A stretch of DNA of 64,000 nt, taken from positions 34,893,779 through 34,957,778 of the forward strand of contig NC_056040.1 in NCBI RefSeq assembly GCF_004379255.2, written 5' to 3'. This DNA is from Salvia splendens (taxonomy: Eukaryota > Streptophyta > Magnoliopsida > Lamiales > Lamiaceae). Below, one piece after another: positions 1 through 41,202 of this stretch. A program made the position numbers and the translations under genes. Within the stretch, counting starts at the first letter, position 1. Each line of letters begins with the position of its first letter. A model generated the notes under the pieces. The model ran no database searches and had not been told where the DNA came from. It saw only the letters and a list, made by a program, of their open reading frames with translations.

Positions 1-2
1 AG

Positions 3-1476: not shown

Positions 1477-1484
1477 ACAAGCTT

Positions 1485-5059: not shown

Positions 5060-5076
5060 CTTTTCGGGGGGGGTAG

Positions 5077-11491: not shown

Positions 11492-11496
11492 ATAGG

Positions 11497-12211
11497 TGAT
11501 GAATCCGCGAATTTCTGGCGTTTGTAAATGCTGGTAGAGAATACAGATCACGACACAGAGATTTACGTGGTTCGATTTACTGAAGTAAATCTACGTCCAC
11601 GGGAAGAAGGGAGGGCAAGATTGTATTGCTTGATCTGGGATTACAGCTTACAACACAGACTTGCTATATGGTATTTTATCTCTAGAGAGCTTAACCTTTT
11701 TCTACCTGATCTAAGTTCTATTTATACATTGAACTAAGATCGTGGCTTGCATCACCACTAATGATGGTTGTGGATGTCGTGGAGGTCCTGCATGTAGCGC
11801 AGGTCATGGCCTACGATCGTGGCCTGAGCTGACACCACGTGGTAGTGGGTGTGTTGGAAGTTGTGGAAATCCTGTATGGGTCCACTAACTCCTTGTTCGG
11901 TCGAATACTGAGACCGAACTGCTTTGGTTGCCGATCTGAGAGTAGAGCTTGATGCCGACCTGAGAGCAGAGCTTGATTGGTTGGCTTTTGCCGAGCTGTA
12001 AGCTGAGGCTGAACTCTTACTGAGACCGAACTGCTTTGGTTGCCGATCTGGGAGCTTGATGCCGACTTGAGAGCAGAGCTTGATTGGTTGGCTTTTACCG
12101 AGCTGTAGGCTGAGGCCGAACTCTTTGGTAATGTCGAACTCATACTCTTCCTTGGGCTTTGGGCTGATGGGCCGTTGGTGCTGTTGGGCTTGTTTAGTCC
12201 GTACCCCATCA
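11497..12211 (-). repeat. 3' LTR of copy B (715 bp)
   Basis: Equal in length to the other LTR of this element and nearly identical (differences seen near 11992, 12010 and 12137). Its terminal TGATGAATCC and CCCCATCA are intact. Confidence 0.95.
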
Positions 12212-12228
12212 CTACCCCCCCCGAAAGA

Positions 12229-12245
12229 CGAAGTGAATCACTTCG
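12229..12245. promoter_or_regulatory. 17-bp palindrome beside the 3' LTR (copy B)
   Basis: CGAAGTGAATCACTTCG, followed by the related CGAAGCGAGTCACTTCG. It lies between the C/G-rich purine tract complement and the start of antisense gene 1, 306 bp upstream of that gene's ATG. Confidence 0.6.
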
Positions 12246-12550
12246 GCGAAGCGAGTCACTTCGGCATTCTGGATAAAGGTACGGGGGAGGCTGACGTCAG
12301 GGGACGTGCCTTGCACGTGACTGCATTAAATGCGACAGTAAAATCCGGCCGTTGAATCCCGAAAAGGTGGGATTCGAAACGGTGCGACGATTTTGAAATC
12401 TTCGCCGAATCTGATAAATACCTCCTTTCTTCATCATTGAAGCACTTTTGCGACTGCTTCTTCTGCACTCTATCTCCTTTGCGTAAAAATTTCCTTCCGC
12501 TTTCAAGAATTTCTTCAGAATTTCTTCAGATTTTGCAAAGAGTAAGAACC

Positions 12551-14403
12551 ATGTCTTCTTCTTCTTCTTCCGAGTTAGGTAGCGGTAGGAAAGGGGGCAA
12601 GGGGTCTTCTAGCCGGAAAGAGTCCGGAGAGAAGACTGTAGAATACTTTCACAGCGTCTTGAGTAAAGACACCGTGATATCTCTACACGAAAAATATCTT
12701 CTTCCCGGGGGGAAGGCGGTGGTTCCCGACGATGATCATAGGGCTAACGACCCGCCGGAGGGTTATGCCACCGTTTACGAAGCCTGCTTAGAATGCGGGC
12801 TTCGTTTCCCTCTTCCCCCACCTTTTGTAGAGCTTCTTGATTTTTTTCAACTCCCTTTAGGTCAGGTGACTCCGAATTCTTGGAGGCACTTGTCGGCTTT
12901 TGCTGCCGAACTCCGTAGGCTAGATAAGGATCTGTCTCTGCGGGCAATCCTTAATTTTTTCCAATTTAAAAGGAAGGGATCTTGGTTTTACTTGATCCCC
13001 TTACAGCCTTTTAGGGCATTCTGCAAAACCAAGTGGCCGAAATGGCAAAACCGCTTCTTTTTTTATAATAGGACAGCGGCTCCGGGCTTCCCCTGGAGAG
13101 GGCCGAAGTCCGTGATTCCTCATCCTCGGTTAGAACCGTTGGCCGAGCTCGAGGGCGAGCTCAATAAGATTCCTATGATTAGGAAACAATACTCGGAAAC
13201 TGAGCTCGTCAAGGGCGACCTCGTGTTCAATATCTCGTCTTCGGACGAAGAAACTGAGGGTGAGGATTTCTTTTTTATGCTTTACTGCTTTAGCAGCGAA
13301 AACTAACCTTGTTTCCTTGCTTTTTGGCAGTGTACATGCTGAATAAGGCTAGCCGCAAATCTTCGGAGTCCAAGGAGCCGGAGAGGCCGAAAACCACCAG
13401 CTCGGCGTCTGATGCCGAGAGGACTCCGAAAAGGCAAAAAACCTCTTCGGATCCGAAGAAGCCGGAGTCGACTTCGGCAAAGGGGAAGGGGAAGGCCCAG
13501 AAACCCCCGAGAGCGCCAGAGAAAGACGTGGTCTTGGCGCCTCCTTCGGAACATATCTGTGAGCCGTTTTTATGGCCCACGGACTTCGCCGAGGTGAATT
13601 CTCTTCTTGATTTTCTGGCCTTGCTTTTTTCCTGTATTTTTGTGGCCCCTTTGTTGACTTTTTTCTTTATCCATTTTCAGAGGAACGATATGCTCTCCAA
13701 GCTCGTCGCCGTCGAACTCTCCAAAGCGTCCAATGACTATGCTGAGATGCAGAGGAAGTTGGCGGCTGCTTGTCATCGGGCCGAACAGGCTGAGGCTAAC
13801 TTTGAGAAGGCCAGAGCTGCTAGGATTTCGGCCCAGGATGAAGCTCAGTTTGCCAAAAACCAGCTCGTCATCCAGCGAGAGCAGACGAAACGGAGGGATG
13901 CTGCCGCCGTGGCTGCCCAGGGGGAGGCTCTCCGTGTTTACACGGAGAAACTCTTTTTGAGCAGCCAGTTCTCGGCTTTTGTCGGTAGTCTGGTAAGGCT
14001 AATTACCGATAAGGGCGAGCAGGGGGCCGACGTCGTGCTGCCTCTGTACAGCCGAGAGATAGCAGCTCGGCTTCAGAATCTGCCGCTCCTTGAGGAGCTC
14101 GCTTCATCCTCGGTCCTGCTTTCTGCAGACCGAGTTCGGAGTTGTCGAGCTGATCGGGACGAGAACCTGGAGGCTATCTTTGCCTCCGTGGGACCCGTTT
14201 CACCCGCTTCGACTTACAACGGAGAGGGTGAGGCCGAGCCGCTGGAGCTGGAGGCCGAAGTCGAGCGGGCCGGGCATCCGGAGAAGGAAGCCGATCAGGA
14301 GGCGGAGGCGAGGCCGGCAGGATGCGAGGCCGAGGCTGAGGTAGCTCAGGAGAAAGAAGCTGAACCAGACCAAGGAGCCGGAGACGAAGCTGGCGGAGTA
14401 TGA
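12551..14403 (+). CDS. Antisense gene 1 of copy B: Transposase_28-like protein, three exons
   Basis: Exons 12551-13259, 13331-13593 and 13681-14403 join in frame (709, 263 and 723 nt) to give 564 aa. Introns are GTGAGG...TTGGCAG and GTGAAT...TTTTCAG. Start: the ATG opening the serine run (MSSSSSSELGSG), after a TATA-like GATAAATA near 12412. Domains: Transposase_28-like region at about 30-200 (GLRFPLPPPFVELLDFF, PNSWRHLSAF), an acidic SSSDEETE hinge, a basic Pro/Ser linker and a coiled coil in exon 3 (NDYAEMQRKLAAACHRAEQ), then a Glu/Ala-rich tail. All three exons are free of stops although this copy lost its pol. Function unknown; probably a nuclear or particle-associated accessory protein, but that is a guess. 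Confidence 0.72.
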
Positions 14404-14605
14404 TTTCGTCTCCCTTCTCTTAGTCTAGTTTCTTCCTTGTACAGTGGCCTTGAAGCCCTCCTAGTGTAAAAAATTTTCCTTGTGAATGAAAAATTCTCTA
14501 CACTTGTCTTCGTATAGCTTTTCGTACTCGCCTTTATTCCTGTTGTATTTTACTATCTGCTCGGTACAGCTGCCGAACTAATATAGCTGCTTTGTACTCA
14601 AGGAG

Positions 14606-15394
14606 ATGGAGATACTTCACTGGAAACGGCTGTACTCTTCGGCTTTAGACGAAGCTGAGAAAAGAGCTATAGCCGATCAGACGAAGAATGACGAGCTTCT
14701 GGCTCGTTTAGTGAAGCTGGAGGCCGATAATAAGGACTTAGAGTCCGATAAGAAGGATCTGGAGGCCGAGCTGAATACGACCATTGCTGAGAGGACTGCG
14801 TACGAGGATTACATCCGTGTGCGCGGGGGAGTGACCATATCAGATGTTCAGAGTCGAGTTGACGAACTGTGGGAGGAATATCATGTACTCCGGAGGAACA
14901 ATGCGCTGGAGAGCTCGGCTTGCCAACAAGTTGTGAAATCATTACGGCGCTGGGCTTCTCGGTACGACATCATTCTTTCCCGGCGTCCCGCAATCGAGAG
15001 GTTCCTTAGGCATTTCCCGCCAACAGATGCTCGCACTCCAGATCAAGCCTCTGGTTCCCTTGTTCAAAATCCTACTCCAAGTCAACAACGAACTCCGGAT
15101 CAGCCGGAAACGTCAAGACGAGAACGGGCTCAGGAGCAACCGGAATCGTCAAGACAGGGACGGACTGAAATTCGCCGAGGAGTTGTGACTATGAGCGAGC
15201 AAGATCAGCAGATGCTTATTGCAGAGACTCTTCATCGCCGAGGTGTTAGGACTTCTCGGGCTCGGGGAAGAGGCGTTGGGTCGAGGATAGCGTCTCGTCG
15301 ACCTGCTTATTCTTCATCTGCTCGGAACAACCGAACTCGGCTTCCAGAGGATTTTGTGAATAGGTGGCTTAACTTCAGCAACCCTGGACAGTAG
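14606..15394 (+). CDS. Antisense gene 2 of copy B: coiled-coil protein, 262 aa
   Basis: Starts at an ATG (MEILHWKRLYSSALDEAEKR) that is CTG in the other copies, so this start may be specific to copy B. Coiled coil around residues 25-65 (ADNKDLESDKKDLEAELN), conserved WASRYDIILSRRPAIERFLR around 115-140, Gln/Pro-rich repeats, then an Arg-rich tail ending NRWLNFSNPGQ. The 200 bp before it look like the 3' end of antisense gene 1, so the two are probably separate transcription units, though splicing onto it is not excluded. No known catalytic motif. Confidence 0.6.
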   Translation: MEILHWKRLYSSALDEAEKRAIADQTKNDELLARLVKLEADNKDLESDKKDLEAELNTTIAERTAYEDYIRVRGGVTISDVQSRVDELWEEYHVLRRNNALESSACQQVVKSLRRWASRYDIILSRRPAIERFLRHFPPTDARTPDQASGSLVQNPTPSQQRTPDQPETSRRERAQEQPESSRQGRTEIRRGVVTMSEQDQQMLIAETLHRRGVRTSRARGRGVGSRIASRRPAYSSSARNNRTRLPEDFVNRWLNFSNPGQ

Positions 15395-15530
15395 AATAGT
15401 CCTTTGTAATAGCGTAACGCCATTTTGTAGGGTAGCGGAGTTGTATGCCGAACAAGATTTGAAAAATGAAATTTTGTTTTCGCTTCTAACACTGTATTTA
15501 CAGCTTAGCGAAAAAATTTCATCGTACTTG

Positions 15531-15847
15531 TCCTCGGTCTTATGAAGTAAACTTTTTTGACCGGACTTGGTCCTTGGTCTTATGAAGTAAACTTCTTTGA
15601 CCGGACTCGTCTTTGGTCTGATGAAATAAACATCTTTGACCGGACTCGTCTTTGGTCTGATGAAATAAACATCTTTGACCGGACTCGTCTTTGGTCTGAT
15701 GAAATAAACATCTTTGACCGGACTCGTCTTTGGTCTGATGAAATAAACATCTTTGATCGGACTCGTCTTTGGTCTGATGAAATAAACATCTTTGACCGGA
15801 CTCGTCTTTGGTCTGATGAAATAAACATCTTTGACCGGACTCGTCTT
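15531..15847. repeat. 39-bp tandem repeat, about eight copies (copy B)
   Basis: Repeats of the form GACCGGACTCGTCTTTGGTC, reverse complement of the array in copy A, with a 39-bp period. Because 39 is a multiple of 3, several frames stay open through it, giving repetitive pseudo-proteins that should not be called genes. Confidence 0.92.
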
Positions 15848-16074
15848 TGTGTTCTAATTTGGCGATTTTTGTCGCCGGGATCGAACTTTCCCTTGTCCTA
15901 ATTCGGCGAGTTTTATCGCGTGGATCGGACTTTCCCAGTTAACCGAAGTGATCTTATGCAGTAAACCTCTTTGACTAGACATGGTCGTCATCGGTCTTAT
16001 GAGGTAAACTTCTTTGACCGAACTTGGTCGTCCTAATTCGGCGAGGTTTATCGCGTGGATCGGACTTTCCCTTA

Positions 16075-16345
16075 TTGCAGTTCGTTTCAGACGAAGTGCT
16101 TACTTCTTAAGCCGAATTGTGGTCTTGTATCTTCCTGAGAAGCTTGGACTCACAATCGTTGGCTTGTTGCAGTTCGTTTCAGACGGACTGCTTGTTAAGC
16201 TGAATTGTGGTCTTGTATCCTCTTTAGAAGCTTTGACTCACAATCGTTGGCTTATTGCAGTTCGTTTCAGACGAACTGCTTGTTTAAGCTGAATTGTGGT
16301 CTTGTATCCTCTTTAGAAGCTTTGACTCACAATCGTTGGCTCGTG
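16075..16345. repeat. About 90-bp tandem repeat, three copies (copy B)
   Basis: Units beginning TTGCAGTTCGTTTCAGACG start at 16075, 16167 and 16255 and continue through AAGCTTTGACTCACAATCG. The corresponding region in the complete copy is single. Confidence 0.8.
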
Positions 16346-16528
16346 TATGTTCTAAGAAGGGGATCAGCCTTCGAAGAACAAGATACCTCAGTAACATTTG
16401 TAAGAGACGACACGCACATAGACAGACAAAACGCACAGATAAAACGCACAGAGACAAACAAAGACCAAGCAAACCAAAGAAAGCACATTGACCGAACAGA
16501 ACTCAAGACTGACTGACCGGACTGTCTC

Positions 16529-17056
16529 TTACAAATGGAACTTTTTGAGGTTGGAAACGTACCATGTTCGGGGTACTTGTGCTCCTGACACGTGAGTCAA
16601 TTTGTAAGACCCTTTGCCGAGGACTTCTGACACCCGATATGGACCTTCCCATGTGGGTTCGAGTTCGCCCAGCTTTTCTGCTCGGCTTACTTCGTTGTTT
16701 CTCAAGACGAGATCTCCCACTTGAAATTGCAGCTTTTTCACCCTTTGGTTATAATACCGGGCTACTTGCTCCTTGTACTTGGCTGCTTTTATGCAGGCCA
16801 ATTCTCTTCTTTCTTCGGCAAGATCTAGTTCGGCTCTCAGTCCGTCCTCATTCAGTTCTGCTGAGAAATTAAGAGTTCGGGGACTGGGTATGCCGATCTC
16901 AACCGGAATCACGGCTTCAGTGCCGTACTCCATCGAGTTCGGCTTCAGTGCCGGTGTGACTTCGGTCATTTCGCCTGCCTTTGACTCCGGCAGCAGTGAT
17001 TGCTGTGCTTGATGGTGCCGATCTGATTGCTCGGCACTTTTAGGCGCAATCTGCAA
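16529..17056 (-). pseudogene. Protease-end / integrase-tail fusion remnant of copy B
   Basis: Reads in one frame from the last protease codons (LQIAPKSAEQSDRHHQ), through what is a TAG stop in other copies but CAG here, into the first residues of pol (GEMTEVTP) and then directly into the integrase C-terminus (YGTEAVIPVEIG to NLKKFHL). RT, RNase H and the integrase catalytic core are missing. The C-terminal 145 residues are undamaged, unlike copy A. Any product would be about 175 aa with no enzyme activity. Confidence 0.85.
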
Positions 17057-17088
17057 ACACTTGCTTTTTTTATCACCTCGGACGACCG

Positions 17089-18165
17089 CTATCCCTCCTT
17101 TGGTGGGGAAGGTGTTCGGCGAGGAAGCCTCTGATCGCTATGATCGGGCTTCCTTTTGTCTTCTCTAGATGAGCTGTCTAAAGACCGTTTTCGACGGTCT
17201 GCCTCATCGGCACGAGAAAACTGGTCCGCAATGTCCCACATCTCTTGAGCTGTTTGCGGACTGCATTCCACGAGCTTTCTGTAGAGAGCTCCGGGTAGGA
17301 TTCCGTTTTGGAATGCCGAAATGACAAGTAGATCATTGAGATTATCTACTTGTAGGCATTCCTTATGGAATCTCGTCAGGAAGTCGCTGATCTTTTCGTC
17401 GCGACCTTGACGTATAGAAAGCAGCTGAGCCGAAGTAATCCGGGCTTCCGCTTTCTGAAAGAACCTCCTGTGGAAAGCATCCATTAGATCTCGGTAGGAT
17501 CTAATGCTGCCTTGAGGAAGGCTGTCGAACCACCTTCTGGCGTTCCCGATGAGCAGCTCGGGGAACAGCTTGCACATATGGACCTCATTGAGACCCTGGT
17601 TCGCCATATTATACTGATAGCGTCCCAGGAAGTCATGAGGATCCACCAACCCGTCATAAGTCATTGACGGAGTTCGGTAGTTCTGTGGCAAGGAAGTTCG
17701 GGTGATATCGTCCGAGAACGGAGTCTTCAATGCTCCGTACATGGCGAACCCGACACCTCTTCGGTATGGAGGAGATGGAGTTCTCCTGTGATTCCGGTAC
17801 CGAGGAGGAACAGGAACATGTCGGGGTTGAGGATTCTTCTTCCTGGAAGACACGGCACTACTGCGGTAGCGACTTTCATGTCTGGATGAGGAAGGAGAAT
17901 CCACCGTTTTCGTCTTCGGCTCTTGGCTCTTTTGCAGGAAGGCTAAGAACTCATCCTGCTTCTCAGCCAAGAACAGCTTGACAGCCTCATTCAAATCAGG
18001 CTGCTGGGAAGACTCGGTGTGTGGACCTTTTGAGCGGCTTGTTCCTTCATCGTGAAAACTGGAAGTAGATGTCTCCCGAGGCTGTTTTCCGGACCTGCGG
18101 GCTGGACTAGCTTCCTCATGGTTTTCACGAACGGTATTACGGGTAGTGTGTGATCTGGTATGCAT
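17089..18165 (-). CDS. Truncated Gag of copy B (about 358 aa)
   Basis: I take the start at the ATG of MHTRSHTTRNTVRENHEEAS (18165), matching the complete copy; nine extra upstream codons are also open. The basic Ser/Arg-rich N-terminus is followed by the Retrotrans_gag domain (about 185-320: NARRWFDSLPQGSIRSYRD, AFHRRFFQKAEARITSAQL). It ends at PRRTPSPPKEG because of a deletion that removes the zinc knuckle and protease; copy A has the same truncated end. The frame is intact and could yield a capsid-like protein able to co-assemble with full-length Gag (inference). Confidence 0.8.
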   Translation of the reverse strand: MHTRSHTTRNTVRENHEEASPARRSGKQPRETSTSSFHDEGTSRSKGPHTESSQQPDLNEAVKLFLAEKQDEFLAFLQKSQEPKTKTVDSPSSSRHESRYRSSAVSSRKKNPQPRHVPVPPRYRNHRRTPSPPYRRGVGFAMYGALKTPFSDDITRTSLPQNYRTPSMTYDGLVDPHDFLGRYQYNMANQGLNEVHMCKLFPELLIGNARRWFDSLPQGSIRSYRDLMDAFHRRFFQKAEARITSAQLLSIRQGRDEKISDFLTRFHKECLQVDNLNDLLVISAFQNGILPGALYRKLVECSPQTAQEMWDIADQFSRADEADRRKRSLDSSSREDKRKPDHSDQRLPRRTPSPPKEG

Positions 18166-18225
18166 TTTTTTTTGGGGTGGAAAAAGGGTCAAAAATTCGC
18201 TTTATCACAAATTTGGTTCTCTGCT

Positions 18226-18242
18226 TCCCACAGACGGCGCCA
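18226..18242 (-). other. Primer binding site of copy B
   Basis: TGGCGCCGTCTGTGGGA on the minus strand, immediately inside the 5' LTR. The first nine bases fit the 3' end of plant tRNA-Asp; the rest does not, so the primer identity is uncertain. Confidence 0.6.
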
Positions 18243-18243
18243 G

Positions 18244-18958
18244 TGATGAATCCGCGAATTTCTGGCGTTTGTAAATGCTGGTAGAGAATACAGATCACGA
18301 CACAGAGATTTACGTGGTTCGATTTACTGAAGTAAATCTACGTCCACGGGAAGAAGGGAGGGCAAGATTGTATTGCTTGATCTGGGATTACAGCTTACAA
18401 CACAGACTTGCTATATGGTATTTTATCTCTAGAGAGCTTAACCTTTTTCTACCTGATCTAAGTTCTATTTATACATTGAACTAAGATCGTGGCTTGCATC
18501 ACCACTAATGATGGTTGTGGATGTCGTGGAGGTCCTGCATGTAGCGCAGGTCATGGCCTACGATCGTGGCCTGAGCTGACACCACGTGGTAGTGGGTGTG
18601 TTGGAAGTTGTGGAAATCCTGTATGGGTCCACTAACTCCTTGTTCGGTCGAATACTGAGACCGAACTGCTTTGGTTGCCGATCTGAGAGTAGAGCTTGAT
18701 GCCGACCTGAGAGCAGAGCTTGATTGGTTGGCTTTTGCCGAGCTGTAGGCTGAGGCCGAACTCTTACTGAGACCGAACTGCTTTGGTTGCCGATCTGGGA
18801 GCTTGATGCCGACTTGAGAGCAGAGCTTGATTGGTTGGCTTTTACCGAGCTGTAGGCTGAGGCCGAACTCTTTGGTAATGCCGAACTCATACTCTTCCTT
18901 GGGCTTTGGGCTGATGGGCCGTTGGTGCTGTTGGGCTTGTTTAGTCCGTACCCCATCA
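18244..18958 (-). repeat. 5' LTR of copy B (715 bp)
   Basis: Pairs with 11497-12211. The outer end CCATCA is followed by the target duplication ATAGG. Confidence 0.95.
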
Positions 18959-20450: not shown

Positions 20451-20538
20451 TGGAGCAACTTCCAGATCCTTAATCTATATCTATCTATACAAGACTGCCA
20501 CTTTTCTGCCCAAATTTTCACTCAATAACTGAATGGCA

Positions 20539-20773
20539 TGTTGGATTTGAATCAGTCGCGCTGGTCAAGAATAATGCTCCAAAGATGTCGGAGTCTGTTG
20601 GAGTCAAGAAGTTGTTTGAGATTTTTATGCTCTGTTTCCTTATTTTTCTTGTGTCAGTTGTACAGAAGACTTTGTCTTCTTTGTTAGGCTATTTAAAGCC
20701 ATTTCCTACTGCTATTAAAATTATCGAAGCTTATTCAGCTTTTGTCAAGTATTGTTTGATCTCAGAACCAACA
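20539..20773 (+). repeat. 5' LTR of copia 1
   Basis: Begins TGTTGGATTTGAATCAGTCG and ends CAGAACCAACA. The tRNA primer site follows four bases later. Confidence 0.95.
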
Positions 20774-21842: not shown

Positions 21843-22547
21843 TGATGGGGTACGTACTAAACAAGCCCAATAGCAGTGACAGCCCATCAGCCCAAAGCCC
21901 AAGGAAGAGTATCAGTTCGGCATTACCAAAGAGTTCGGCCCCAGCCTACAGCTCGGTAAAAGCCAACCAATCAGTTCGGCATTACCAAAGAGTTCGGCCC
22001 CAGCCTACAGCTCGGTAAAAGCCGACCAATCAAGCTCTACTCTCAGATCGGCAAAAGCTGCTCGGCAATAGTTCAGAAGTTCGGTCTCAGTATTCGACCG
22101 AACTGGGAGATAGTGGACTCATGCAGAACCTCCACGACCTCCACTACACGATCTATTTAGTGGTGTCAACTCATGCAGGGTCTCATGCAGGATAGCGGAC
22201 CAAACAAAGAGATAGTGGACCCATGCAGGATCTCATGACCTCCACGATATCCACTACCTAGTTAGTGGTGATGCAAGCCACGACCTAGTTAGTGGTGATG
22301 CAAGCCACGATCTTAGTTCAATGTATAAATAGAACTTAGATCAGATAGAGGAGGGGCTGGAGACATCAAATAACATATAGCAAGTCTGTATTTGTAAGCT
22401 GTAAACCAGATCAAGCAATACAATCTTGCCCTCCTTTCTTCCCGTGGACGTAGATTTACTTCAGTAAATCGAACCACGTAATTCCTTGTGTCGTGATCTA
22501 TATTCATTACCTGCATTTACTACCATCAAAAATTCGCCCAACCATCA
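21843..22547 (+). repeat. 5' LTR of the full-length gypsy element
   Basis: 705 bp, TGATGGGG to CCATCA. A TATA box (TATAAATAG) lies near 22324. A 59-bp module beginning CAGTTCGGCATTACC is duplicated in U3 (21913 and 21972). Confidence 0.96.
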
Positions 22548-22548
22548 C

Positions 22549-22565
22549 TGGCGCCGTCTGTGGGA
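22549..22565 (+). other. Primer binding site of the full-length gypsy element
   Basis: TGGCGCCGTCTGTGGGA, one base after the LTR. The first nine bases match tRNA-Asp. Confidence 0.6.
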
Positions 22566-22620
22566 AACAGAGAACCAAATTTGTGATAAAGCGAGTTTTT
22601 GATCCTCTTCCACCAAAAAA

Positions 22621-24732
22621 ATGCATACCAGATCACGTAACACCCATAATACCGTTCGTGATAACCATGAGGAAGCTAGTCCAGCCCGCAGGTCTGGAAA
22701 ACAGCCTCGGGAGAAATCTACTTCCAGTTCTCACGGAGAAGGAACAAGCCGCTCAAAGACTCATCGCACCGAGTCTTCCCAGCAGCCCAATTTGAACGAG
22801 GCTGTCAAGTTGTTTTTGGCCGAGAAGCAGGAAGAGTTCTTAATTTTCCTGCAAAAAGGCCAAAAGCCGGAGACGAAAACGGTGGATTCTCCCTCCTCAT
22901 CCAGACATGAAAGTCACTACCGCAGTAGTGCCATGTCTTCCAGGAAGAAGAATCCTCAACCCCGACATGTTCCTGTTCCTCCTTGGTACCGGAATCACAG
23001 GAGAACTCCATCTCCTCCATACCGAAGAGATGTCGGGTTCGCCATGTACGGAGCATTGAAGACTCCGTTCTCGGACGATATCACCCGAACTCCCTTACCA
23101 CAGAACTACCGAACTCCGTCAATGACTTATGACGGGTTAGTGAATCCTCATGACTTCCTGGGACGCTATCAGTATAACATGGCGAACCAGGGTCTCAATG
23201 AGGTCCATATGTGCAAGCTGTTTCCCGAGCTGCTTATCGGGAACGCAAGAAGGTGGTTCGATAGCCTCCCCCAAGGCAGCATTAGATCTTACCGAGATCT
23301 AATGGATGCTTTCCACAGGAGGTTCTTTCAGAAAGCGGAAGCCCGAATCACTTCGGCTCAGCTGCTTTCTACACGTCAAGGTCGCGACGAAAAGATCAGC
23401 GACTTTATGACGAGGTTCCACAAGGAATGCCTACAAGTAGATGATCTCAATGATCTACTTGTCATTTCGGCATTCCAAAATGGAATCCTGCCCGGAGCTC
23501 TCTACAGAAAGCTCGTGGAATGCAGTCCGCAAACAGCTCAAGAGATGTGGGACATTGCGGACCAGTTCTCCCGTGCCGATGAGGCAGACCGTCGCAAACG
23601 GTCTTTAGACAGCTCATCCCGAGGAGACAGGAGGAAGCCCGATCATAGCGATCAGGGACATCCTCGCCGAACTCCTTTTGGCGATCAGGGACATCCTCGC
23701 CGAACTCCTTTTGAAAGGATTCAAAGGACTCCGGTGCAAGACCGATTGGGACCACGTCTCAATCCTGAGAAGCCGCCCGCTCAGTTCGTACCATTGAACA
23801 AGTCTAGAGCGGAAATTTTCGAACTGCATTCCGATATGTTCGAAAAACCAAAGCGGATGACGAAATCGGCCGCGCGTCGACCTCAGGATCAATATTGCTC
23901 CTTCCATCAAGACCACGGTCACGATACCGAGGAGTGCCGACATTTGGCTGCAGGTATTGATGCTCTTGTGAAAGCAGGGACGTTAAAAAAATACCAAAGC
24001 AAGCAGCCGAAAAAGAACAAAAAGCAAAGAGGTGCAAACTGCGCTCCTCAGGATCTGAAAAAGCAACAGGACCCTGAAGACGATGACGAGCTGCAATATG
24101 ATGGAGTAATCCTGACTATTGATGCTCTCCCTGCCGGGAAGACTAAATCGTCCCTGAAGTCAGAGCGCAGAGGCTTCAATCGAGAGGAGCCAACGCATAA
24201 AAGGCTGAAGCAGGACGAAGTGATTACATTTTCAGATGCAGATCCCGTCCCGGCCATCTCTCCTCATCAAGACGCTATTGTCATCCAAGCCGGAGTGGCA
24301 AACAAACTGATCCACAGAGTGTTTGTGGATACCGGAGCGTCAGTCAGCATTCTTTTTAAAGAATGTTTCGATAAACTAGAAGTGGATCCAGCTCGGCTCA
24401 GTCCGGCTCCACTTCCTCTGAAAAGTTTCGCCCAGGAGGACACCCGCCCTGAAGGTATTATCAGCCTTCCGATCACGGTGGGAAAAGCGCCTACAAGCTC
24501 CAGTACGATGATCGAGTTCTTTGTGGTAAAAGCTCGGTCCCCGTACAACATCATCTTGGGAAGAGACTGGCTCAACGCAGTTCGGGCCGTTTGCTCTACT
24601 TATCACCTCACCATCAAGATTCCCACTAAAGGTGGGATAGCGGTCATCCGAGGTGATCAAAAGAGAGCAAAAGAGTGTCTGCAGATTGCGCTTAAAAGTG
24701 CCGAGCAATCAGATCGGCATCATCAAGCATAG
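22621..24732 (+). CDS. Gag-protease polyprotein (703 aa) of the gypsy element
   Basis: Starts MHTRSRNTHNTVRDNHEEAS. Basic disordered N-terminus, Retrotrans_gag domain (about 185-320), a short direct duplication (GHPRRTPFGDQGHPRRTPFE, about 342-361), then an unusual C-X2-H-X4-H-X4-C knuckle (CSFHQDHGHDTEEC). The aspartic protease has its catalytic VDTGAS at D570 and the ILGRDWL motif near 640. It ends with a UAG at 24730-24732 in a leaky context; the pol frame continues in the same phase. Gag should form the particle and the protease should process it. B and A lack the portion from the knuckle to most of the protease. Confidence 0.95.
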   Translation: MHTRSRNTHNTVRDNHEEASPARRSGKQPREKSTSSSHGEGTSRSKTHRTESSQQPNLNEAVKLFLAEKQEEFLIFLQKGQKPETKTVDSPSSSRHESHYRSSAMSSRKKNPQPRHVPVPPWYRNHRRTPSPPYRRDVGFAMYGALKTPFSDDITRTPLPQNYRTPSMTYDGLVNPHDFLGRYQYNMANQGLNEVHMCKLFPELLIGNARRWFDSLPQGSIRSYRDLMDAFHRRFFQKAEARITSAQLLSTRQGRDEKISDFMTRFHKECLQVDDLNDLLVISAFQNGILPGALYRKLVECSPQTAQEMWDIADQFSRADEADRRKRSLDSSSRGDRRKPDHSDQGHPRRTPFGDQGHPRRTPFERIQRTPVQDRLGPRLNPEKPPAQFVPLNKSRAEIFELHSDMFEKPKRMTKSAARRPQDQYCSFHQDHGHDTEECRHLAAGIDALVKAGTLKKYQSKQPKKNKKQRGANCAPQDLKKQQDPEDDDELQYDGVILTIDALPAGKTKSSLKSERRGFNREEPTHKRLKQDEVITFSDADPVPAISPHQDAIVIQAGVANKLIHRVFVDTGASVSILFKECFDKLEVDPARLSPAPLPLKSFAQEDTRPEGIISLPITVGKAPTSSSTMIEFFVVKARSPYNIILGRDWLNAVRAVCSTYHLTIKIPTKGGIAVIRGDQKRAKECLQIALKSAEQSDRHHQA

Positions 24733-24738
24733 CAATCA
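24730..24738 (+). promoter_or_regulatory. Predicted stop-codon readthrough site UAG-CAA-UCA
   Basis: The only stop between gag-protease and pol is TAG followed by CAATCA, fitting the UAG-CAR-YYA rule known from tobamoviruses. The next eleven codons are open up to the pol ATG at 24766, and both frames are in the same phase. Readthrough would give a fusion of about 1800 aa in minor amounts. The ATG at 24766 (GCGAAATGA, good context) leaves reinitiation as an alternative. The same nine bases are kept in copy C. Confidence 0.65.
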
Positions 24739-24765
24739 CAGCAGCCGGAGTCTGAGGCAAGCGAA

Positions 24766-27700
24766 ATGACCGAAGTCACACCAGAGTCGAACTCAATGAC
24801 CGTTCAGTTATACGAAGATGATCCATCCAGAACGGTCAAGATCGGTTTCGCGGGAACGCCTCTACTCCGGGAAAAGACCATCCAGCTCCTCAAGGAGTAC
24901 AAAGATGTCTTTGCATGGTCTCCGTTGGACATGACCGGAGTGCCCCCTGAGGTAATCACTCATCGGTTAAATATTGATCCTTCAGTCCGGCCTATAAAAC
25001 AGAAGCAAAGACTCTTTGCGGCAGAAAGAAATCAAGTCATCCATGACGAAGTCCGCCAATTATTGAAAGCGGATGTATTATTCGAGGTGAAATATCCTTC
25101 TTGGGTGGCCAATCCTGTGATGATCAAGAAAAAAGAAGGAGGATGGCGGATGTGCATAGATTTTACCGATCTAAACAAGCACTGTCCTAAAGATTGCTAT
25201 CCCCTTCCGAACATAGATAAAAAAGTAGAAGCTTTGATCGGCTTCGAAATTTTCTGTTTTCTTGATTTATACAAAGGCTACCACCAAGTTTTAATGGATG
25301 AGAATGATGCTTCAAAAACGGCTTTCATTACTGACTTCGGCATCTTTGCTTATAAAAAGATGCCATTCGGTTTAAAGAATGCCGGAGCCACATATCAAAG
25401 GATGGTAGATAAGCTTTTTCGGCATTTGATAGGAAAAGAGGTTGAAGTGTATGTCGACGACATAGTCGTCAAAAGCAGAAGCACTTCGGAGTACGAAGAC
25501 AACCTCAAATCCACCCTCGACGTGCTCAAAAAAGCCAACCTCAAACTCAATCCCCAAAAATGTACCTTTTTGGTAGATTCGGGAAAGTTTCTGGGTTGTT
25601 GGGTTTCAAAGGACGGACTCAAGGCAAATCCCTCAAAAGTTCAAGTTGTTCAGAACATGGCGATGCCGAAGTCCATACATGATGTGCAAAGGCTAACTGG
25701 ATGTCTAGCCGCACTGAATAGATTCCTTTCCCAAGCAGCCGAAAAGCAACTGCCGTTCTTCAAAGTGTTGAAAAAGGCACCAAAGTTTGAGTGGGGAGCC
25801 GAGCAGAAAAAGGCTTTTGACGAGCTCAAAAGTTATTTAGCCAAGCTTCCAATTCTCTCTGCTCCAACAGATGCCGAAGTGATATTCTTATACTTAGCGG
25901 CATCAGATCAAACCATTAGCGCGGTGCTTGTACGAGAAGAAGGCCTAAAGCAGCTTCCCATCTACTTTACAAGCCGAGCATTAAGAGGTCCAGAAACAAG
26001 GTATCAACCTCAGGAAAAAATTGCTCTGGCGTTAGTAAATGCAGCAAGGAGACTGCGGCCATACTTCTATGCTCACAAGGTATGCGTCTTAACCGATCTG
26101 CCACTTCGGCAAGTTTTGACCAAGCCAGAAGCATCAGGCAGAATCGCCAAATGGGCCATAGAGTTGGGAGAACACTCAATAGAATATCTACCTCGGAAAG
26201 CCATCAAGGGACAAGCCTTGGCAGATTTTCTTGCAGAGGCAAAGTTCGATCAAGCAATCCCTGTTATTGCCGAACAGGAAAATCCTGCCAATGACGAACT
26301 AACACAGCCCCAGGAATCCGAAGTAGAACCGCCGGACTGCTGGAGTGGATTCGTAGATGGAGCTTCGAATAAGACGGGAAGTGGAGCTGGTATTCTACTT
26401 ATCGCTCCCGACGGACACGAGGTAACTTATTCACTTCGGTTCTTATTCCCAACTACTAATAACGAAGCCGAATACGAAGCCCTCCTTGCCGGACTTCAAT
26501 TAGCGCAAAGTCTATTTGTCAAATCTCTCAAAATCCATTGTGATTCACAAGTCATAGTGAATCACATGCTGGGTACAAGTGAAGCCCGAGATGAGAGGAT
26601 GAAAAAATACTTGGACAAAGCACAAAGCATTAGCCGAAGTTTCTCTTATTTTCGGATAATCCGCATTCCCAGAGCGGAAAACAGCCGAGCAGATACTTTA
26701 AGTAAGTTGGCCTCATATCCGAGCTCAAAGGTGGAGGAATTACTACACCGAAGCATTGATGAAGCTGAGGTACATTCAGTAACCAGCTCGCCGAACTGGA
26801 TGACGCCGATCTTACAGTATCTAGATCAAGGACAACTGCCCGAGGATAAGAGAGAAGCTCGGAAAATCACATGCCGAGCACTTCGGTATGAACTTCATGA
26901 AGGAGTCCTATACAGAAAGTCCTACCTTCAACCGTTATTGCGATGTGTAGGACCAGAAGAGACGGACTACATCCTTAGAGAAGTTCATGAAGGATCTTGC
27001 GGTAGCCACATCGGAGCTAGAGCTTTAGCTAAAAAAGTTCTGAGATGGGGATATTATTGGCCAACTTTGGTACAAGAAGCAGTGCAGCTCGTCAAGACAT
27101 GTACGAAGTGCCAAATTCATGCAAATATCCCAAGGATGCCGCAGACCGATCTATGTGCTATGCAAAGCCCTTGGCCTTTTATGCAATGGGGCATAGACAT
27201 AGTAGGACCACTACCACAAGCTCCTCGGCAAATGAAATTCCTTATCGTTGCAGTGGATTACTTCACGAAGTGGGTGGAGGCTGAACCATTAGCTACGATA
27301 ACGAGCTCGAAGGCATTGGATTTCGTCTGGAAGAACATAGTGTGCCGATTTGGCATACCCCACATCCTCATTTCGGATAATGGGACTCAGTTCACCGACA
27401 AGACATTCAAGAATTGGTGCCAAGAGCTGAATATTCAACAGCGGTTCACTTCGGTCTCCCACCCACAAGCAAACGGACAAACGGAGGTAACAAACCGTAT
27501 CTTGGTGAAAGGGTTAAAAGCTCGGTTAGAACAAGCCAAAGGACAATGGGTAGAAAATCTCCCTCAAGTCCTATGGTCCTACCGAACTACACCCAAAACC
27601 TCCAACGGTGAAACTCCGTACAGTCTGGTGTACGGCACTGAAGCCGTGATTCCGGTTGAGATCGGCGTACCCAGTCCCCGAACTCTAAATTTCTCCTCAG

Positions 27701-28029
27701 AAATGAATGATGACGGATTGAGAGCCGAACTAGATCTGGCCGAAGAAAGAAGAGAATTGGCCTGCATAAAAGCAGCCAAGTACAAGGAGCAAGTAGCCCG
27801 GTATTATAACCAAAGGGTGAAAAAGCTGCAATTTCAAGTGGGAGATCTCGTCTTGAGAAACAACGAAGTAAGCCGAGCAGAAAAGCTGGGCAAACTCGAA
27901 CCCACCTGGGAAGGTCCATATCGGGTGTCAGAAGTCCTCGGCAAAGGGTCTTACAAATTGACTCACGTGTCAGGAGAACAAGTACCCCGAACATGGCACA
28001 TTTCCAACCTTAAGAAGTTCCATTTGTAA
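24766..28029 (+). CDS. Pol of the gypsy element: RT, RNase H, second RNase H, integrase (1087 aa)
   Basis: Reverse transcriptase at about 80-260 (PSWVANPVMIKKKEGGWRMC, FLDLYKGYHQ, YVDD at 229-232), then the gypsy RNase H region to about 490. A second RNase H of the archaeal/plant type follows: GFVDGAS (D531), NNEAEYEALLAGL, HCDSQVIVNH, ENSRADTLSKLA. Integrase: zinc motif (HEGSCGSHIGA ... CTKCQIH), catalytic D811 (WGIDIVGP), D871 (SDNGTQF) and E907 (GQTEVTNR) with the usual 35-residue spacing, then GDLVLRN and WEGPYRV, no chromodomain, ending NLKKFHL. No stop or frameshift and all catalytic residues present. It is likely the in-trans source for copies like A and B. Confidence 0.96.
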   Translation: MTEVTPESNSMTVQLYEDDPSRTVKIGFAGTPLLREKTIQLLKEYKDVFAWSPLDMTGVPPEVITHRLNIDPSVRPIKQKQRLFAAERNQVIHDEVRQLLKADVLFEVKYPSWVANPVMIKKKEGGWRMCIDFTDLNKHCPKDCYPLPNIDKKVEALIGFEIFCFLDLYKGYHQVLMDENDASKTAFITDFGIFAYKKMPFGLKNAGATYQRMVDKLFRHLIGKEVEVYVDDIVVKSRSTSEYEDNLKSTLDVLKKANLKLNPQKCTFLVDSGKFLGCWVSKDGLKANPSKVQVVQNMAMPKSIHDVQRLTGCLAALNRFLSQAAEKQLPFFKVLKKAPKFEWGAEQKKAFDELKSYLAKLPILSAPTDAEVIFLYLAASDQTISAVLVREEGLKQLPIYFTSRALRGPETRYQPQEKIALALVNAARRLRPYFYAHKVCVLTDLPLRQVLTKPEASGRIAKWAIELGEHSIEYLPRKAIKGQALADFLAEAKFDQAIPVIAEQENPANDELTQPQESEVEPPDCWSGFVDGASNKTGSGAGILLIAPDGHEVTYSLRFLFPTTNNEAEYEALLAGLQLAQSLFVKSLKIHCDSQVIVNHMLGTSEARDERMKKYLDKAQSISRSFSYFRIIRIPRAENSRADTLSKLASYPSSKVEELLHRSIDEAEVHSVTSSPNWMTPILQYLDQGQLPEDKREARKITCRALRYELHEGVLYRKSYLQPLLRCVGPEETDYILREVHEGSCGSHIGARALAKKVLRWGYYWPTLVQEAVQLVKTCTKCQIHANIPRMPQTDLCAMQSPWPFMQWGIDIVGPLPQAPRQMKFLIVAVDYFTKWVEAEPLATITSSKALDFVWKNIVCRFGIPHILISDNGTQFTDKTFKNWCQELNIQQRFTSVSHPQANGQTEVTNRILVKGLKARLEQAKGQWVENLPQVLWSYRTTPKTSNGETPYSLVYGTEAVIPVEIGVPSPRTLNFSSEMNDDGLRAELDLAEERRELACIKAAKYKEQVARYYNQRVKKLQFQVGDLVLRNNEVSRAEKLGKLEPTWEGPYRVSEVLGKGSYKLTHVSGEQVPRTWHISNLKKFHL

Positions 28030-28365
28030 GAGACAGTCCGGTCAGTCAGTCTTGTGTCTAGTTCGGTCCTAGAGGTATGTGCTTTCTTTGTTTTTTACTT
28101 GTTCTTTGTGCTTGTTTTATAAAAGTTTAAAATCTTGTTCGTCCTTTTTGTTTGTCTATGTGCGTTTTGTTTGTCTATGTGCGTTTTGTCTGTCTATGTG
28201 CGTGTCGTCTCTTACAAATGTTACTGAGGTATCTTGTTCTTCGAAGGCTGATCCCCTTTTTAGAACATATATAAGCCAACGATTGTGAGTCCAAGCTTCT
28301 AAGGAGGATACAAGACCACAATTCAGCTTAAGAAACAAGCAGTCCGTCTGAAACGAACTGCAACA

Positions 28366-28621
28366 AAGGGAAAGTCCGATCCACGCGATAAAACTCGCCA
28401 AATTAGGACAAGGGAAAGTCCGATCCGAGCGATAAAACTCGCCAAATTAGGACACAAGCTTAGTCCGGTCAAAGAAATTTACTTCATAAGACCAAAGACG
28501 AGTCCGGTCAAAGAAGTTTACTTCATAAGACCAAAGACGAGTCCGGTCAAAGAAGTTTATTTCATAAGACCGAGGACCAAGTCCGGTCAAAGAAGTTTAC
28601 TTCATAAGACCGAGGACGAGC
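28366..28621 (+). repeat. Tandem repeats of the full-length gypsy element (2 x 44 bp, 4 x 39 bp)
   Basis: Two AAGGGAAAGTCCGATCC units, then four AGTCCGGTCAAAGAA units starting at 28462, 28501, 28540 and 28580. They lie between the end of pol and the end of antisense gene 2, which converge here. Confidence 0.9.
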
Positions 28622-28754
28622 ACGATGAAATTTTTTCGCTGAGCTGTAAATACGCAGTGATAGAAGCGAAACGAAAATTTCATTTATTAAATCTTGTTCG
28701 GCATATAATTCTGCTGCCCTACAAGAAGGCGTTACGCCATTACAAAGGACTATT

Positions 28755-29618
28755 CTACTGTCCCTGGTTGCTAAAGTTGAGCCATCTATTCACAAAATCC
28801 TCGTGAAGCCGAGTTCGGTCATTCCGGGCAGCTGAAGAATAAGCAGGTCGACGAGATGCTCTAATCGACCTACCGCCTCTTCCCTGAGCCCGGGAAGCTC
28901 TAGCACCTCGGCGGCGAAGAGTCTCTTCACGAAGCATTTGTTGATCTTGCTCACTCATAATCACAGCTCCTCCACGAACATCAGTCCGTCCTTGTCTTGA
29001 CGTTTCCGGTTGCTCCTGAGTCCGTTCTCGTCTTGACGTTTCCGGTTGTTCCTGAGTTCGTTGCTGACTTGGAGTATGATTTTGAGCAAGTGGATCAGAG
29101 GTTTGAGCTGGAGTATGAGCATCTGTTGGCGGGAAATGCCTAAGGAATCTCTCGATTGAAGGACGCCGGGAAAGAACGATGTCGTACCGAGAAGCCCAGC
29201 GCCGCAATGATTTCACGACTTGTTGGCAAGCCGAGCTCTCCAGCGCATTGTTCCTCCGGAGTACATGATATTCCTCCCACAGTTCGTCAACTCGTTCCTG
29301 AACTTCAGAGATGGTCATTCCCCCACGCCTGCTGATGAAATCCTCATACGCAGTCCTCTCAGCGACGGCAGTATTCAGCTCGGCCTCCAGATCTTTCTTT
29401 TCGGACTCTAAGTCCTTATTGTCGGCCTCCAGCTTCACTAAACAAGCCAAGAGTTCGTCATTCTTCATCTGGTCAGCTATGGCTTTTTTCTCAGCTTCGT
29501 CTAAAGCAGAAGAGTACAGCCGCTTCCAGTGAAGTACCTCCAGCTCCTTAAGAGTTAAGAATACAAAGCAGCCTATGTCAGTTCGGCATTTCAGTTTACT
29601 GAGCAGGTAGTAAACCAC
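28755..29618 (-). CDS. Antisense gene 2 of the full-length gypsy element (287 aa)
   Basis: Same architecture as in copy A: coiled coil (ADNKDLESEKKDLEAELN), EEYHVLRRNNALESSACQQV, WASRYDIVLSRRPSIERFL, a Gln/Thr/Pro/Arg-rich stretch with a duplicated RERTQEQPETSR-type segment, then an Arg-rich tail. Transcribed toward pol. The ATG at 29618 is the only in-frame start before the coiled coil, but the sequence before LEVLHWKR also contains a possible acceptor (CTCTTAAG), so a spliced start is possible. Function unknown. Confidence 0.62.
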   Translation of the reverse strand: MVYYLLSKLKCRTDIGCFVFLTLKELEVLHWKRLYSSALDEAEKKAIADQMKNDELLACLVKLEADNKDLESEKKDLEAELNTAVAERTAYEDFISRRGGMTISEVQERVDELWEEYHVLRRNNALESSACQQVVKSLRRWASRYDIVLSRRPSIERFLRHFPPTDAHTPAQTSDPLAQNHTPSQQRTQEQPETSRRERTQEQPETSRQGRTDVRGGAVIMSEQDQQMLREETLRRRGARASRAQGRGGRSIRASRRPAYSSAARNDRTRLHEDFVNRWLNFSNQGQ

Positions 29619-29771
29619 AACAGGAGTAAAAGAGAGTACGAAAAGCTATACGAAGACACAAGTGCAGAAAGAAGAATTTTTTCATTCATAAGAAAAAAAA
29701 TTTTACACAAGGAGGGCTTCAAGGCCATTTTACAAGAAGGAAGAAACTAAACTAAGAGAAGGGAGACGAAA

Positions 29772-31639
29772 TCATACTCCGCCAGCTTCGTCTCCGGCTC
29801 CTCGGTGAGGTTCAGCTTCCTTCTCCTTGTCTGCCTCAGCTTCAGCCTCGGCCTCCCTGCTCCTCCCAGCCTGCTCGGTGCCCCCATCACCGATCAGCAG
29901 CACCTCTTGCTCGGCCTGCCTGTCTCCGGTCTGCTGATCAAGCTGCTCGGTCTCACCCTCTCCGTGGAAAATTGGAGCAGGTGAAACTGGCCCTAAGGAG
30001 GCAAAGATAGCCTCCATATTCTCGTCCCGGTCAGCTCGGCAACTACGAACTCGGTCAGCAGAAAGCAAGACCGAGGACGAAGCAAGCTCCTCAAGGAGCG
30101 GCAGACTCTGGAGACGAGCTGCTATCTCTCGGCCGTACAGCGGCAGGACGACTTCGGGCCCCTGCTCGGCATTATCGGTCATCAGTTTCAGCAGATCACC
30201 GACAAAGGCCGAAAATTGATTGCTTAGAAAGAGTTTCTCCGCGAAAGCACGGAGAACCTCCCCTTGGGCAACCACGGCGGCAGCATCCCTCCGTTTCGTC
30301 TGCTCTCGCTGGATGACGAGCTGGTTTTTGGCAAACTGGGCTTCATCCTGGGCCGAGATCCTAGCAGCTCTGGCCTTCTCAAAGTCTGCCTTAGCCTGTT
30401 CGGCCTGGTGACGAGCAGCCGCCAACTTCCTCTGCATCTCAGCATAATCGTTGGACGCTTTGGAGAGTTCAACGGCGACGAGCTTGGAGAGCATATCGTT
30501 CCTCTGAAAATGGAAAAAGAAAAAAAGTCAACCGAGGGGCCACAAAAAATACAGAAAAAAAAGCAAGGCCAGAAAATCAGGAAGAGAATTCACCTCGGCG
30601 AAGTCCGTGGGCCATAAAAATGGCTCACAGATATGTTCCGAAGGAGGCGCCAAGACCACGTCTTTCTCTGGCGCTCTTGGGGGCTTCTGGGTCTTCCCCT
30701 TCCCCTTTGCCGAAGTGGACTCCGGCTTTTTTGGATCCGAAGAAGAGGTCTTTTGCCTCTTCGGATTCTTCTCGGCATCAGGCGCCGAGCTGGTAGCCTT
30801 CTGTTTCTCCGGCTCCTTAAGCTCGGAGGATTTGCGGCTAATCTTATTTAGCAAGTTCACTGCCAAAAAGCAAGAAAACAAGGTTAGTTTTCGCCACAAA
30901 AGCAGTAAGGCACAAAAAAGAAGTCCTCACCCTCAGTCTCTTCGTCCGAAGACGAGGAGTCGAACACGAAGTCGCCCTTGACGAGCTCAGACTCCAGGTA
31001 CTGCTTCCTAATCATAGGAATCTTATTGAGCTCGCCCTCGAGCTCGTTCAACGGTTCTAACCGAGGATGAGGGATCACGGACTTCGGCCCTCTCCAGGGA
31101 AAGCCCGGAGCCGCTGTCCTATTATAAAAAAAGAAGCGATGTTGCCACTTTGGCCACTTGGTTTTGCAGAAGGCCCTAAAGGGCTGTAAAGGGATCAAGT
31201 AAAACCAAGATCCCTTCCTCTTAAACTGGAAGAAATTAAGGATTGCCCTCAGAGACAGATCCTTATCTAGCCTACGCAGTTCGGCAGTAAAGGCCGATAA
31301 GTGCCTCCAAGAGTTCGGAGTCACCTGACCTAAAGGGAGTTGAAAAAAATCTAGCAGCTCTACAAAGGCAGGGGGAAGAGGGAAACGAAGCCCGCATTCC
31401 AAGCCGGCTTCATAAACGGTGGCGTAACCCTCCGGCGGCGAGTCAGCCCTATGAAGGTCGTCGGGAATCGCAACCTTCCCCCCAGGAAAAAAATATTTTT
31501 CGTGTAAGGATATCACAGTATCCTTACTCAAGATGCTGTGAAAATACTCTACGGTCTTCTCCCCGGATTCTTTCCGGCTAGAAGACCCCTTACCCCCTTT
31601 CCTACCGCTACCTGACTCAGAAGAAGAAGAAGAAGACAT
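29772..31639 (-). CDS. Antisense gene 1 of the full-length gypsy element: Transposase_28-like, three exons
   Basis: Exons 31639-30931, 30859-30594 and 30503-29772 (709, 266 and 732 nt) join in frame to 568 aa. Donors GTGAGG and GTGAAT; acceptors TTGGCAG and TTTTCAG. Start: the ATG of the serine run, with a TATA-like GATAAATA upstream near 31777. Transposase_28-like domain (ECGLRFPLPPAFVELLD, GQVTPNSWRHLS, WPKWQHRFFF), an acidic hinge (SSSSDEETE), a basic linker, and a coiled coil with Glu/Ala tail in exon 3. These introns can only be removed from an antisense transcript, which argues for a promoter beside the 3' LTR facing inward. The product's role is unknown. Confidence 0.75.
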
Positions 31640-31943
31640 GGTTCTTACTCTTTGAAAGTCTGAAGAAATTCTGAAGAAATTCTTGAAAGTGGAAGGAAAT
31701 TTTTACGCAAAAGAGAGAGAATGCAGAAGAAGCAATAGCAAAAGTGTTCAAATGATGAAGAAAGGACGTATTTATCAGATTCGGAGAAGATTTCAAAATC
31801 ATCGCACCGTTTCGAATCCCACCTTTTCAGGATTCAACGGCCGGATTTTACTGTCGCATTTAATGCAGTCACGCGCAAGGCACGTCCCCTGACGTCAGCC
31901 TCCCCCGTACCTTTATCCAGAATGCCGAAGTGACTCGCTTCGC

Positions 31944-31960
31944 CGAAGTGATTCACTTCG
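31944..31960. promoter_or_regulatory. 17-bp palindrome beside the 3' LTR (full-length gypsy)
   Basis: CGAAGTGATTCACTTCG, 18 bp from the LTR, with the related GAAGTGACTCGCTTCG just before it. It lies between the antisense promoter region and the G-rich primer tract. Confidence 0.6.
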
Positions 31961-31977
31961 CTTTTCGGGGGGGGTAG

Positions 31978-32682
31978 TGATGGGGTACGTACTAAACAAG
32001 CCCAATAGCAGTGACGGCCCATCAGCCCAAAGCCCAAGGAAGAGTATCAGTTCGGCATTACCAAAGAGTTCGGCCCCAGCCTACAGCTCGGTAAAAGCCA
32101 ACCAATCAGTTCGGCATTACCAAAGAGTTCGGCCCCAGCCTACAGCTCGGTAAAAGCCGACCAATCAAGCTCTACTCTCAGATCGGCAAAAGCTGCTCGG
32201 CAATAGTTCAGAAGTTCGGTCTCAGTATTCGACCGAACTGGGAGATAGTGGACTCATGCAGAACCTCCACGACCTCCACTACACGATCTATTTAGTGGTG
32301 TCAACTCATGCAGGGTCTCATGCAGGATAGCGGACCAAACAAAGAGATAGTGGACCCATGCAGGATCTCATGACCTCCACGACATCCACTACCTAGTTAG
32401 TGGTGATGCAAGCCACGACCTAGTTAGTGGTGATGCAAGCCACGATCTTGGTTCAATGTATAAATAGAACTTAGATCAGATAGAGGAGGGGCTGGAGACA
32501 TCAAATAACATATAGCAAGTCTGTATTTGTAAGCTGTAAACCAGATCAAGCAATACAATCTTGCCCTCCTTTCTTCCCGTGGACGTAGATTTACTTCAGT
32601 AAATCGAACCACGTAATTCCTTGTGTCGTGATCTATATTCATTACCTGCATTTACTACCATCAAAAATTCGCCCAACCATCA
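31978..32682 (+). repeat. 3' LTR of the full-length gypsy element
   Basis: 705 bp, preceded by the polypurine-like GGGGGGGGTAG and followed by the GAACC duplication. Confidence 0.96.
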
Positions 32683-35638: not shown

Positions 35639-35667
35639 AGCTAACGCTTTCAGTTTAGGGGAGGCAA

Positions 35668-35900
35668 TGTTGGATTTGAATCAGTCGCTGGTCAAGAATA
35701 ATGCTCCAAAGATGTCGGAGTCTGTTGGAGTCAAGAAGTTGTTTGAGATTTTTATGCTCTGTTTCCTTATTTTTCTTGTGTCAGTTGTACAGAAGACTTT
35801 GTCTTCTTTGTTAGGCTATTTAAAGCCATTTCCTACTGCTATTAAAATTATCGATGCTTATTCAGCTTTTGTCAAGTATTGTTTGATCTCAGAACCAACA
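35668..35900 (+). repeat. 3' LTR of copia 1
   Basis: 233 bp, preceded by the purine tract TTAGGGGAGGCAA and followed by the TGGCA duplication. Confidence 0.95.
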
Positions 35901-37027: not shown

Positions 37028-37117
37028 AATCTCCACCTTGGCAAAATTTCAAATCCCGCCAAATACAAATCTTCTCCATCCAAACAAACGACTCGCGGTG
37101 CTTTCATATTGGCGCAG

Positions 37118-41128: not shown

Positions 41129-41187
41129 TACAGACTCAAAATAAAGTATTCAATATTACAAACAAACAGAACCAAGGACGAACCTTT

Positions 41188-41200
41188 GGCTCTGATACCA
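41188..41200 (-). other. Primer binding site of copia 2
   Basis: TGGTATCAGAGCC on the minus strand, two bases from the 5' LTR; matches initiator methionine tRNA. Confidence 0.9.
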
Positions 41201-41202
41201 CT

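Follow-up and report, generated by a model that had tools for sequence, protein, structure and literature searches.

The window analyzed here, a stretch of 64,000 nucleotides from the genome of Salvia splendens, contains a complete Retand-type Ty3/gypsy element on the forward strand (21843-32682), which is bounded by a 5-bp target duplication (GAACC) and nested within a copia element. Its two LTRs (21843-22547 and 31978-32682) are 705 bp each and differ by 3 mismatches (99.57% identity), which, assuming 1.3e-8 substitutions per site and year, suggests an age of ~0.16 million years. The LTR pieces of the copia host, at 20538-20773 and 35667-35900, are 98.7% identical over 236 aligned bp, and a further repeat-bounded element (repeat D4) occupies 36509-41502 on the reverse strand and includes an open frame of 1,095 aa (37454-40741).

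The gypsy element carries a gag-protease open frame (22603-24732, forward strand), which ends in TAG at 24730-24732, and a pol open frame (24733-28029, forward strand), which comprises RT, RNase H, a second RNase H and integrase and ends in TAA. Pfam returned Retrotrans_gag (6.9e-16) and gag-asp_proteas (2.3e-4, below the curated cut-off) on the first frame, followed by RVT_1, RT_RNaseH, RVT_3, and rve, which is the gypsy order; our reading of RVT_3 is that it represents the additional RNase H of Tat elements. Between the pol stop and the 3' LTR lie ~3.9 kb, within which an antisense frame (30884-31702, reverse strand) matches Transposase_28 (TRP28, PF04195) at 3.6e-10. Because the available text of a Retand survey gives an antisense TRP28 frame in this position as a common feature of the lineage (PMC11963269), we filed the element as Retand-type. 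Its domain order and long TRP28-bearing region would place it in the Retand lineage of Tat, in agreement with an initial annotation of this DNA that had called it Tat-like. A second antisense Transposase_28 (TRP28) frame between pol and 3' LTR is present in the window at 12356-13306 (+).

The gag-protease and pol frames abut in one phase, and the single UAG at 24730-24732 is all that separates them. Inspection of both frames bore out the initial annotation on this point, as well as on the CAAUCA that follows the stop and on the eleven open codons (24733-24765, forward strand) that join it to the first in-frame methionine of pol. The nine bases UAG-CAA-UCA (24730-24738, forward strand) match exactly the type I readthrough consensus, UAG-CAR-YYA, for which the six nucleotides 3' of the stop are described as the stimulator in tobamoviruses (PMC3542737, from the portion available), and the open frame continues past the stop, in phase, through pol. 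Upstream of the UAG are A at position -1 and C at -2. The TAGCARYYA word occurs 5 times in the 64-kb window, with 3.33 occurrences expected from shuffles; the word alone is therefore not rare, and its weight here rests on its place and uniformity rather than on its presence. Another type I match, TAGCAACCA, is found at 28773-28765 (-) and 1874-1866 (-), close to where an antisense frame ends; by hand count the one at 28773 is out of that frame and thus probably a chance occurrence. The pol frame of the copia element is interrupted in phase by a TGA at 35096, and the GTGTTA that comes next does not make a type I context.

Two viral systems provide points of comparison. As in tobamoviruses (UAG-CAA-UUA), the putative signal consists of UAG and the six downstream bases CARYYA and would be read in plant host cells; the tobamoviral stop, however, interrupts a viral replicase, is followed by UUA as second codon and has A two bases before it, whereas the stop here lies between Gag-Protease and Pol and has UCA and C at these positions. 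The comparison is one of sequence context, which makes the stop of the element a candidate leaky stop. Murine leukemia virus (MuLV), a gammaretrovirus, likewise has an in-phase UAG in gag-pol, which sets its Gag:Pol ratio by type III readthrough. The MuLV signal is UAG-G with a pseudoknot, whereas at this junction the base after UAG is C, which does not fit the type III signal (UAG-G or a purine-rich octamer, with a pseudoknot or stem-loop 3' of it); the stop is followed by CARYYA and preceded by protease, and folds starting directly 3' of it are not unusually stable (z-scores of +0.18 over 60 nt and -1.49 over 120 nt).

Three other copies of the junction lie within the window, and their bases at the site of the stop are as the initial annotation had described them, although the loss of pol, which it had noted for copy B, extends to copy A. 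Copy C has the same nine bases (TAG-CAATCA) at 62868-62876 on the reverse strand, with an open pol frame at 59577-62873; copy A has them at 556-564 on the forward strand, where a deletion joining 24773 to 27626 (numbering of the main copy) has removed most of pol; and the relic in copy B (17107-16953, reverse strand) reads CAG where the others read TAG. Most of pol and part of protease are missing from both copy A (1-5427) and copy B (11496-18542), and the boundaries of the loss are alike, which hints that the two may belong to a non-autonomous subfamily that spread alongside the full element.

To place the junction within its family, the host genome (806 Mb) was searched with the junction, and 40 of the 2,574 first-look candidates were scored. 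The RT-start pattern YKDVFAW occurs at 2,298 places. All of the first 30 such loci, on one contig, carry TAG-CAATCA 162 or 168 nt upstream, and in 22 of these 30 the junction UAG is the sole in-frame stop of the 3-kb locus. We then fetched 87 distinct copies, comprising 30 loci chosen by likeness to the window copy, 49 by the RT-start motif (one contig), 7 by other motif patterns, and copy C; one locus at the same place as another (L057 and L006) and one unrelated match (L061) had been left out beforehand. Each of the 87 reads TAGCAATCA (88 of 88 rows including one duplicate), and 42 of the 49 sampled copies are open across 900 nt. When the nine bases were left free between fixed junction flanks, the pattern matched 2,846 places, and among the first 100 listed, 99 read TAGCAATCA and 1 reads TAGCCATCA. 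Freeing the nine bases just upstream as a control gave 2,887 places, that is, 41 more altered copies than for the stop 9-mer, a plain count between two blocks that differ in base make-up; among the first 100 listed, 5 were altered in the control block and 1 in the stop 9-mer. Searches of the host genome for deeper families gave 7 matches to D[I/L/F]FAW (6 from the same family and 1 unrelated), 1 exact match to FAWxxxDMPG (same family) and 0 to NKACPKD. The patterns tried found only one Retand-type family in this genome (2,298 matches to YKDVFAW against 1 and 0), and none that diverged far enough for conservation to be tested in depth.

The initial annotation had further held that the stop is conserved only where it matters, pointing to copy B, in which pol is deleted and the stop lost. 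The deletion in copy B is real, but copy A also lacks most of pol and still has the TAG. Among the first 100 listed genome sites, every one of the 74 with the exact RT-start motif downstream reads TAGCAATCA, as do 25 of the other 26, a class defined by having no exact match to the motif within 260 bases, which by itself does not establish the loss of pol at a given site. This part of the claim accordingly did not hold, and the retention of the nine bases at the 25 sites counts against a leaky stop. The youth of the family also means that a comparison of pol-less with pol-bearing copies cannot discriminate.

We next compared the stop region with its neighbors, using a null model that takes account of methylation context and codon position. 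L032 and L063, both rearranged 5' of the stop, were set aside. Across the 900 nt compared in the other 85 copies, no invariant run is longer than a 17-nt stretch (24724-24740, forward strand) that covers the stop and the six bases after it. Only 4 of 297 codon-aligned 9-mers are unchanged in these copies, and three of them start at the stop or within the two codons before it; under the model, p is 0.0045 for the stop 9-mer, and a run this long at any position has p 0.012. In a 48-copy sample chosen by the RT-start motif only, 10 of 297 9-mers are unchanged, with p 0.0069 for the stop 9-mer and 0.033 for the longest run. An apparently larger signal (p 5e-5 for the 9-mer and 3e-8 for a 16-nt run) was rejected, as it had been inflated by the two rearranged copies. 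The expectation that the stop and the six bases 3' of it are more conserved than their surroundings was therefore upheld in that the longest run lies there, but the excess is moderate only (p 0.012-0.033), and the youth of the family precludes a strong conservation test.

The same youth bears on whether the UAG has any function at all. It could be a lesion that became fixed in a young master copy and was spread by trans-complementation, its uniformity reflecting recent descent only. The near-identity of the window LTRs would fit this explanation, as would the likeness of sampled pol sequences to that of the window copy (93-99.4% in 26 of 30, with four lower, no gap correction being applied) and the nine bases kept at the 25 sites discussed above. 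In the 48-copy sample, as many as 68 of 297 9-mers also lack any shared variant, so that the signal from shared variants alone is weak. A lesion, however, would have to be followed by CARYYA by coincidence, for which the chance directly 3' of one given stop is 1 in 512 (simple arithmetic with equal base frequencies). It would also leave to be explained why the downstream pol is open and varies as coding sequence does, with 22 of 30 loci otherwise open, and why the same stop is shared by several sublineages, including one with a 6-nt indel. On balance, a spread lesion seems quite unlikely to us.

RNA structure may contribute to the invariance as well. Prediction over 24670-24789 returned a fold (24679-24744, forward strand) that encloses the stop and contains an inner hairpin of 7 bp on the 5' side of the UAG; GAUUGC is predicted to pair with GCAAUC, with the stop at a bulge in the helix. 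The fold has a z-score of -2.5, with 2 of 200 shuffles equally stable. It has 21 pairs around the stop, 19 of which hold in 84-87 of the 87 copies and the remaining two in 62 and 71, and covariation across these copies revealed no compensatory changes beyond single copies. Because the predicted pairs are kept in most copies, RNA structure may account for part of the invariance of the stop region, and a role of the fold in packaging or dimer formation is possible. Searches over the sequence gave 0 Rfam matches at the gathering score and 0 tRNA genes by ARAGORN.

The pattern of variation on either side of the stop is that of translated sequence. Shared variants fall at third codon positions in 52 of 69 cases before the stop, 51 of 73 after it and 4 of 6 in the linker. 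The stop is in phase with the RT-start motif in 86 of 87 copies, 15 of which have a 6-nt deletion, and the residues following the stop are unchanged as QSQQ in 87 of 87 copies and as QSQQPES in 86. An in-phase, unchanged linker argues that the stretch directly 3' of the UAG is translated, as readthrough predicts. Termination at the UAG followed by reinitiation at the in-frame AUG eleven codons on, which would make a separate Pol, predicts otherwise, since CAAUCA and the linker's phase and residues would then be free to change. All but one of the 87 copies, the 15 with the deletion among them, retain this AUG, the first in-frame methionine of pol, which would suit reinitiation. Eukaryotic ribosomes reinitiate inefficiently after a frame as long as ~700 codons, however, and we give this route little credence.

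Splicing offers another way to fuse pol to gag-protease, by removing the stop from part of the transcripts, and it has a precedent within the Tat lineage. Like the element described here, Ogre elements have gag-protease first and RT-RNaseH-integrase second, and the region between gag-protease and RT is reported to be spliced out, with an intron known in pea and Medicago (PMC6317226, as far as its text was available). The Ogre frames are on average 274 bp apart in that account, whereas here they abut without a gap. In-frame GT-AG pairs across the stop do exist, but when these were scored with splice-site weights against 64 control positions within the same element, the best pair was at background, with 27% of the controls scoring as high. 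The ten best pairs have a U content of 19-22%, and third-position variation continues through the linker, both of which speak against an Ogre-type intron at this junction. We regard such splicing as improbable, and both splicing and reinitiation have less support than readthrough.

Relatives of the element bear on where the stop came from. We examined 152 listed protein relatives in other plants (30, the best 120 of 4,106, and 2 more). A pattern script found the RT-start motif in 130 and the protease-end motif in the same chain as well in 110, with one-chain protease-RT linkers in Arachis, Coffea, Fagus, Tanacetum, and others; because protein databases favor open frames, and a gene model can pass over a stop, this count may be biased toward one-chain relatives. 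Relatives thus appear to do without such a stop, a point against programmed readthrough. The stop may be derived, and the count fits a gain in this lineage, though suggestively only. In the available text of the Retand survey, one gag/pol frame is given for 37 clusters (59%) and two frames for the rest, the one-frame share being 83% among eudicot Retand clusters versus 29% among so-called Liliaceae clusters (PMC11963269). One possible history, which we hold tentatively and short of even confidence, is that the dominant Retand lineage of this genome swapped an ancestral one-frame gag-protease-pol for a leaky UAG in the protease-RT linker, an independent gain of type I (tobamoviral) readthrough as the switch between Gag-Pro and Pol in a retroelement, perhaps coupled to the fold. 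Relatives were also sought beyond plants: in viral contigs, one pattern gave no match, none of 34 matches to another was confirmed and none of 18 short-pattern loci encodes a relative, and in GTDB contigs, none of 10 pattern matches was confirmed. A gag relative labelled Escherichia coli (P0154, on a 2,245-bp contig) ends before the junction; it is 50-58% identical to the Gag of this element and for that reason is probably plant contamination of a bacterial assembly.

From the observed position, phase, context, and family-wide uniformity of the UAG, we infer that readthrough occurs at this junction, at a rate that would set the ratio of Gag-Pro to Pol. We consider it likely that the UAG closing the gag-protease frame serves as a programmed leaky stop. 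The majority of ribosomes would terminate at it and release Gag-Protease, while a minority would decode it, given that CAAUCA fits the tobamoviral CARYYA signal, and would continue to produce Gag-Protease-RT-RNaseH-Integrase. The outcome would be an excess of Gag-Protease over Pol, and the leaky stop would probably limit the enzyme output of the element. Stop suppression as the initial annotation had proposed it retains the type I stop in frame in 87 of 87 copies, the coding-like variation and the lack of an intron-like gap, but not the argument from conservation only where it matters. Altogether, the support for readthrough at this Retand junction is good circumstantial support.

There are precedents for parts of this arrangement. 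Readthrough candidates among rice gypsy elements are already known, as are two-frame Retand elements, which are common. Rice RIRE2, a gypsy-type element, was named a readthrough candidate (Ohtsubo 1999, as cited in PMC2754532), and the available text of PMC11963269 lists it with an antisense frame in the region from pol to the 3' LTR, as found here. Stop suppression in a plant LTR retrotransposon is also known for the soybean copia element SIRE1, as conveyed by the title and citations of that report, where the suppressed stop precedes an env-like frame, whereas here it lies between gag-protease and pol. A review of plant LTR retrotransposons names frameshifting and two transcripts as the two main strategies for Gag excess, and neither "readthrough" nor "read-through" occurs in its available text (PMC12786077). 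We found no description of UAG-CARYYA between gag-protease and pol of a Retand element in the portions of the open-licence literature that were available. As of 2009, the experimentally verified cases of readthrough in plants were all viral, according to the available part of PMC2754532. This very abundant family combines 2,846 matching sites and a textbook leaky context with a large share of open copies among those sampled (42 of 49), and it would offer a clean system in which to test endogenous readthrough in plants.
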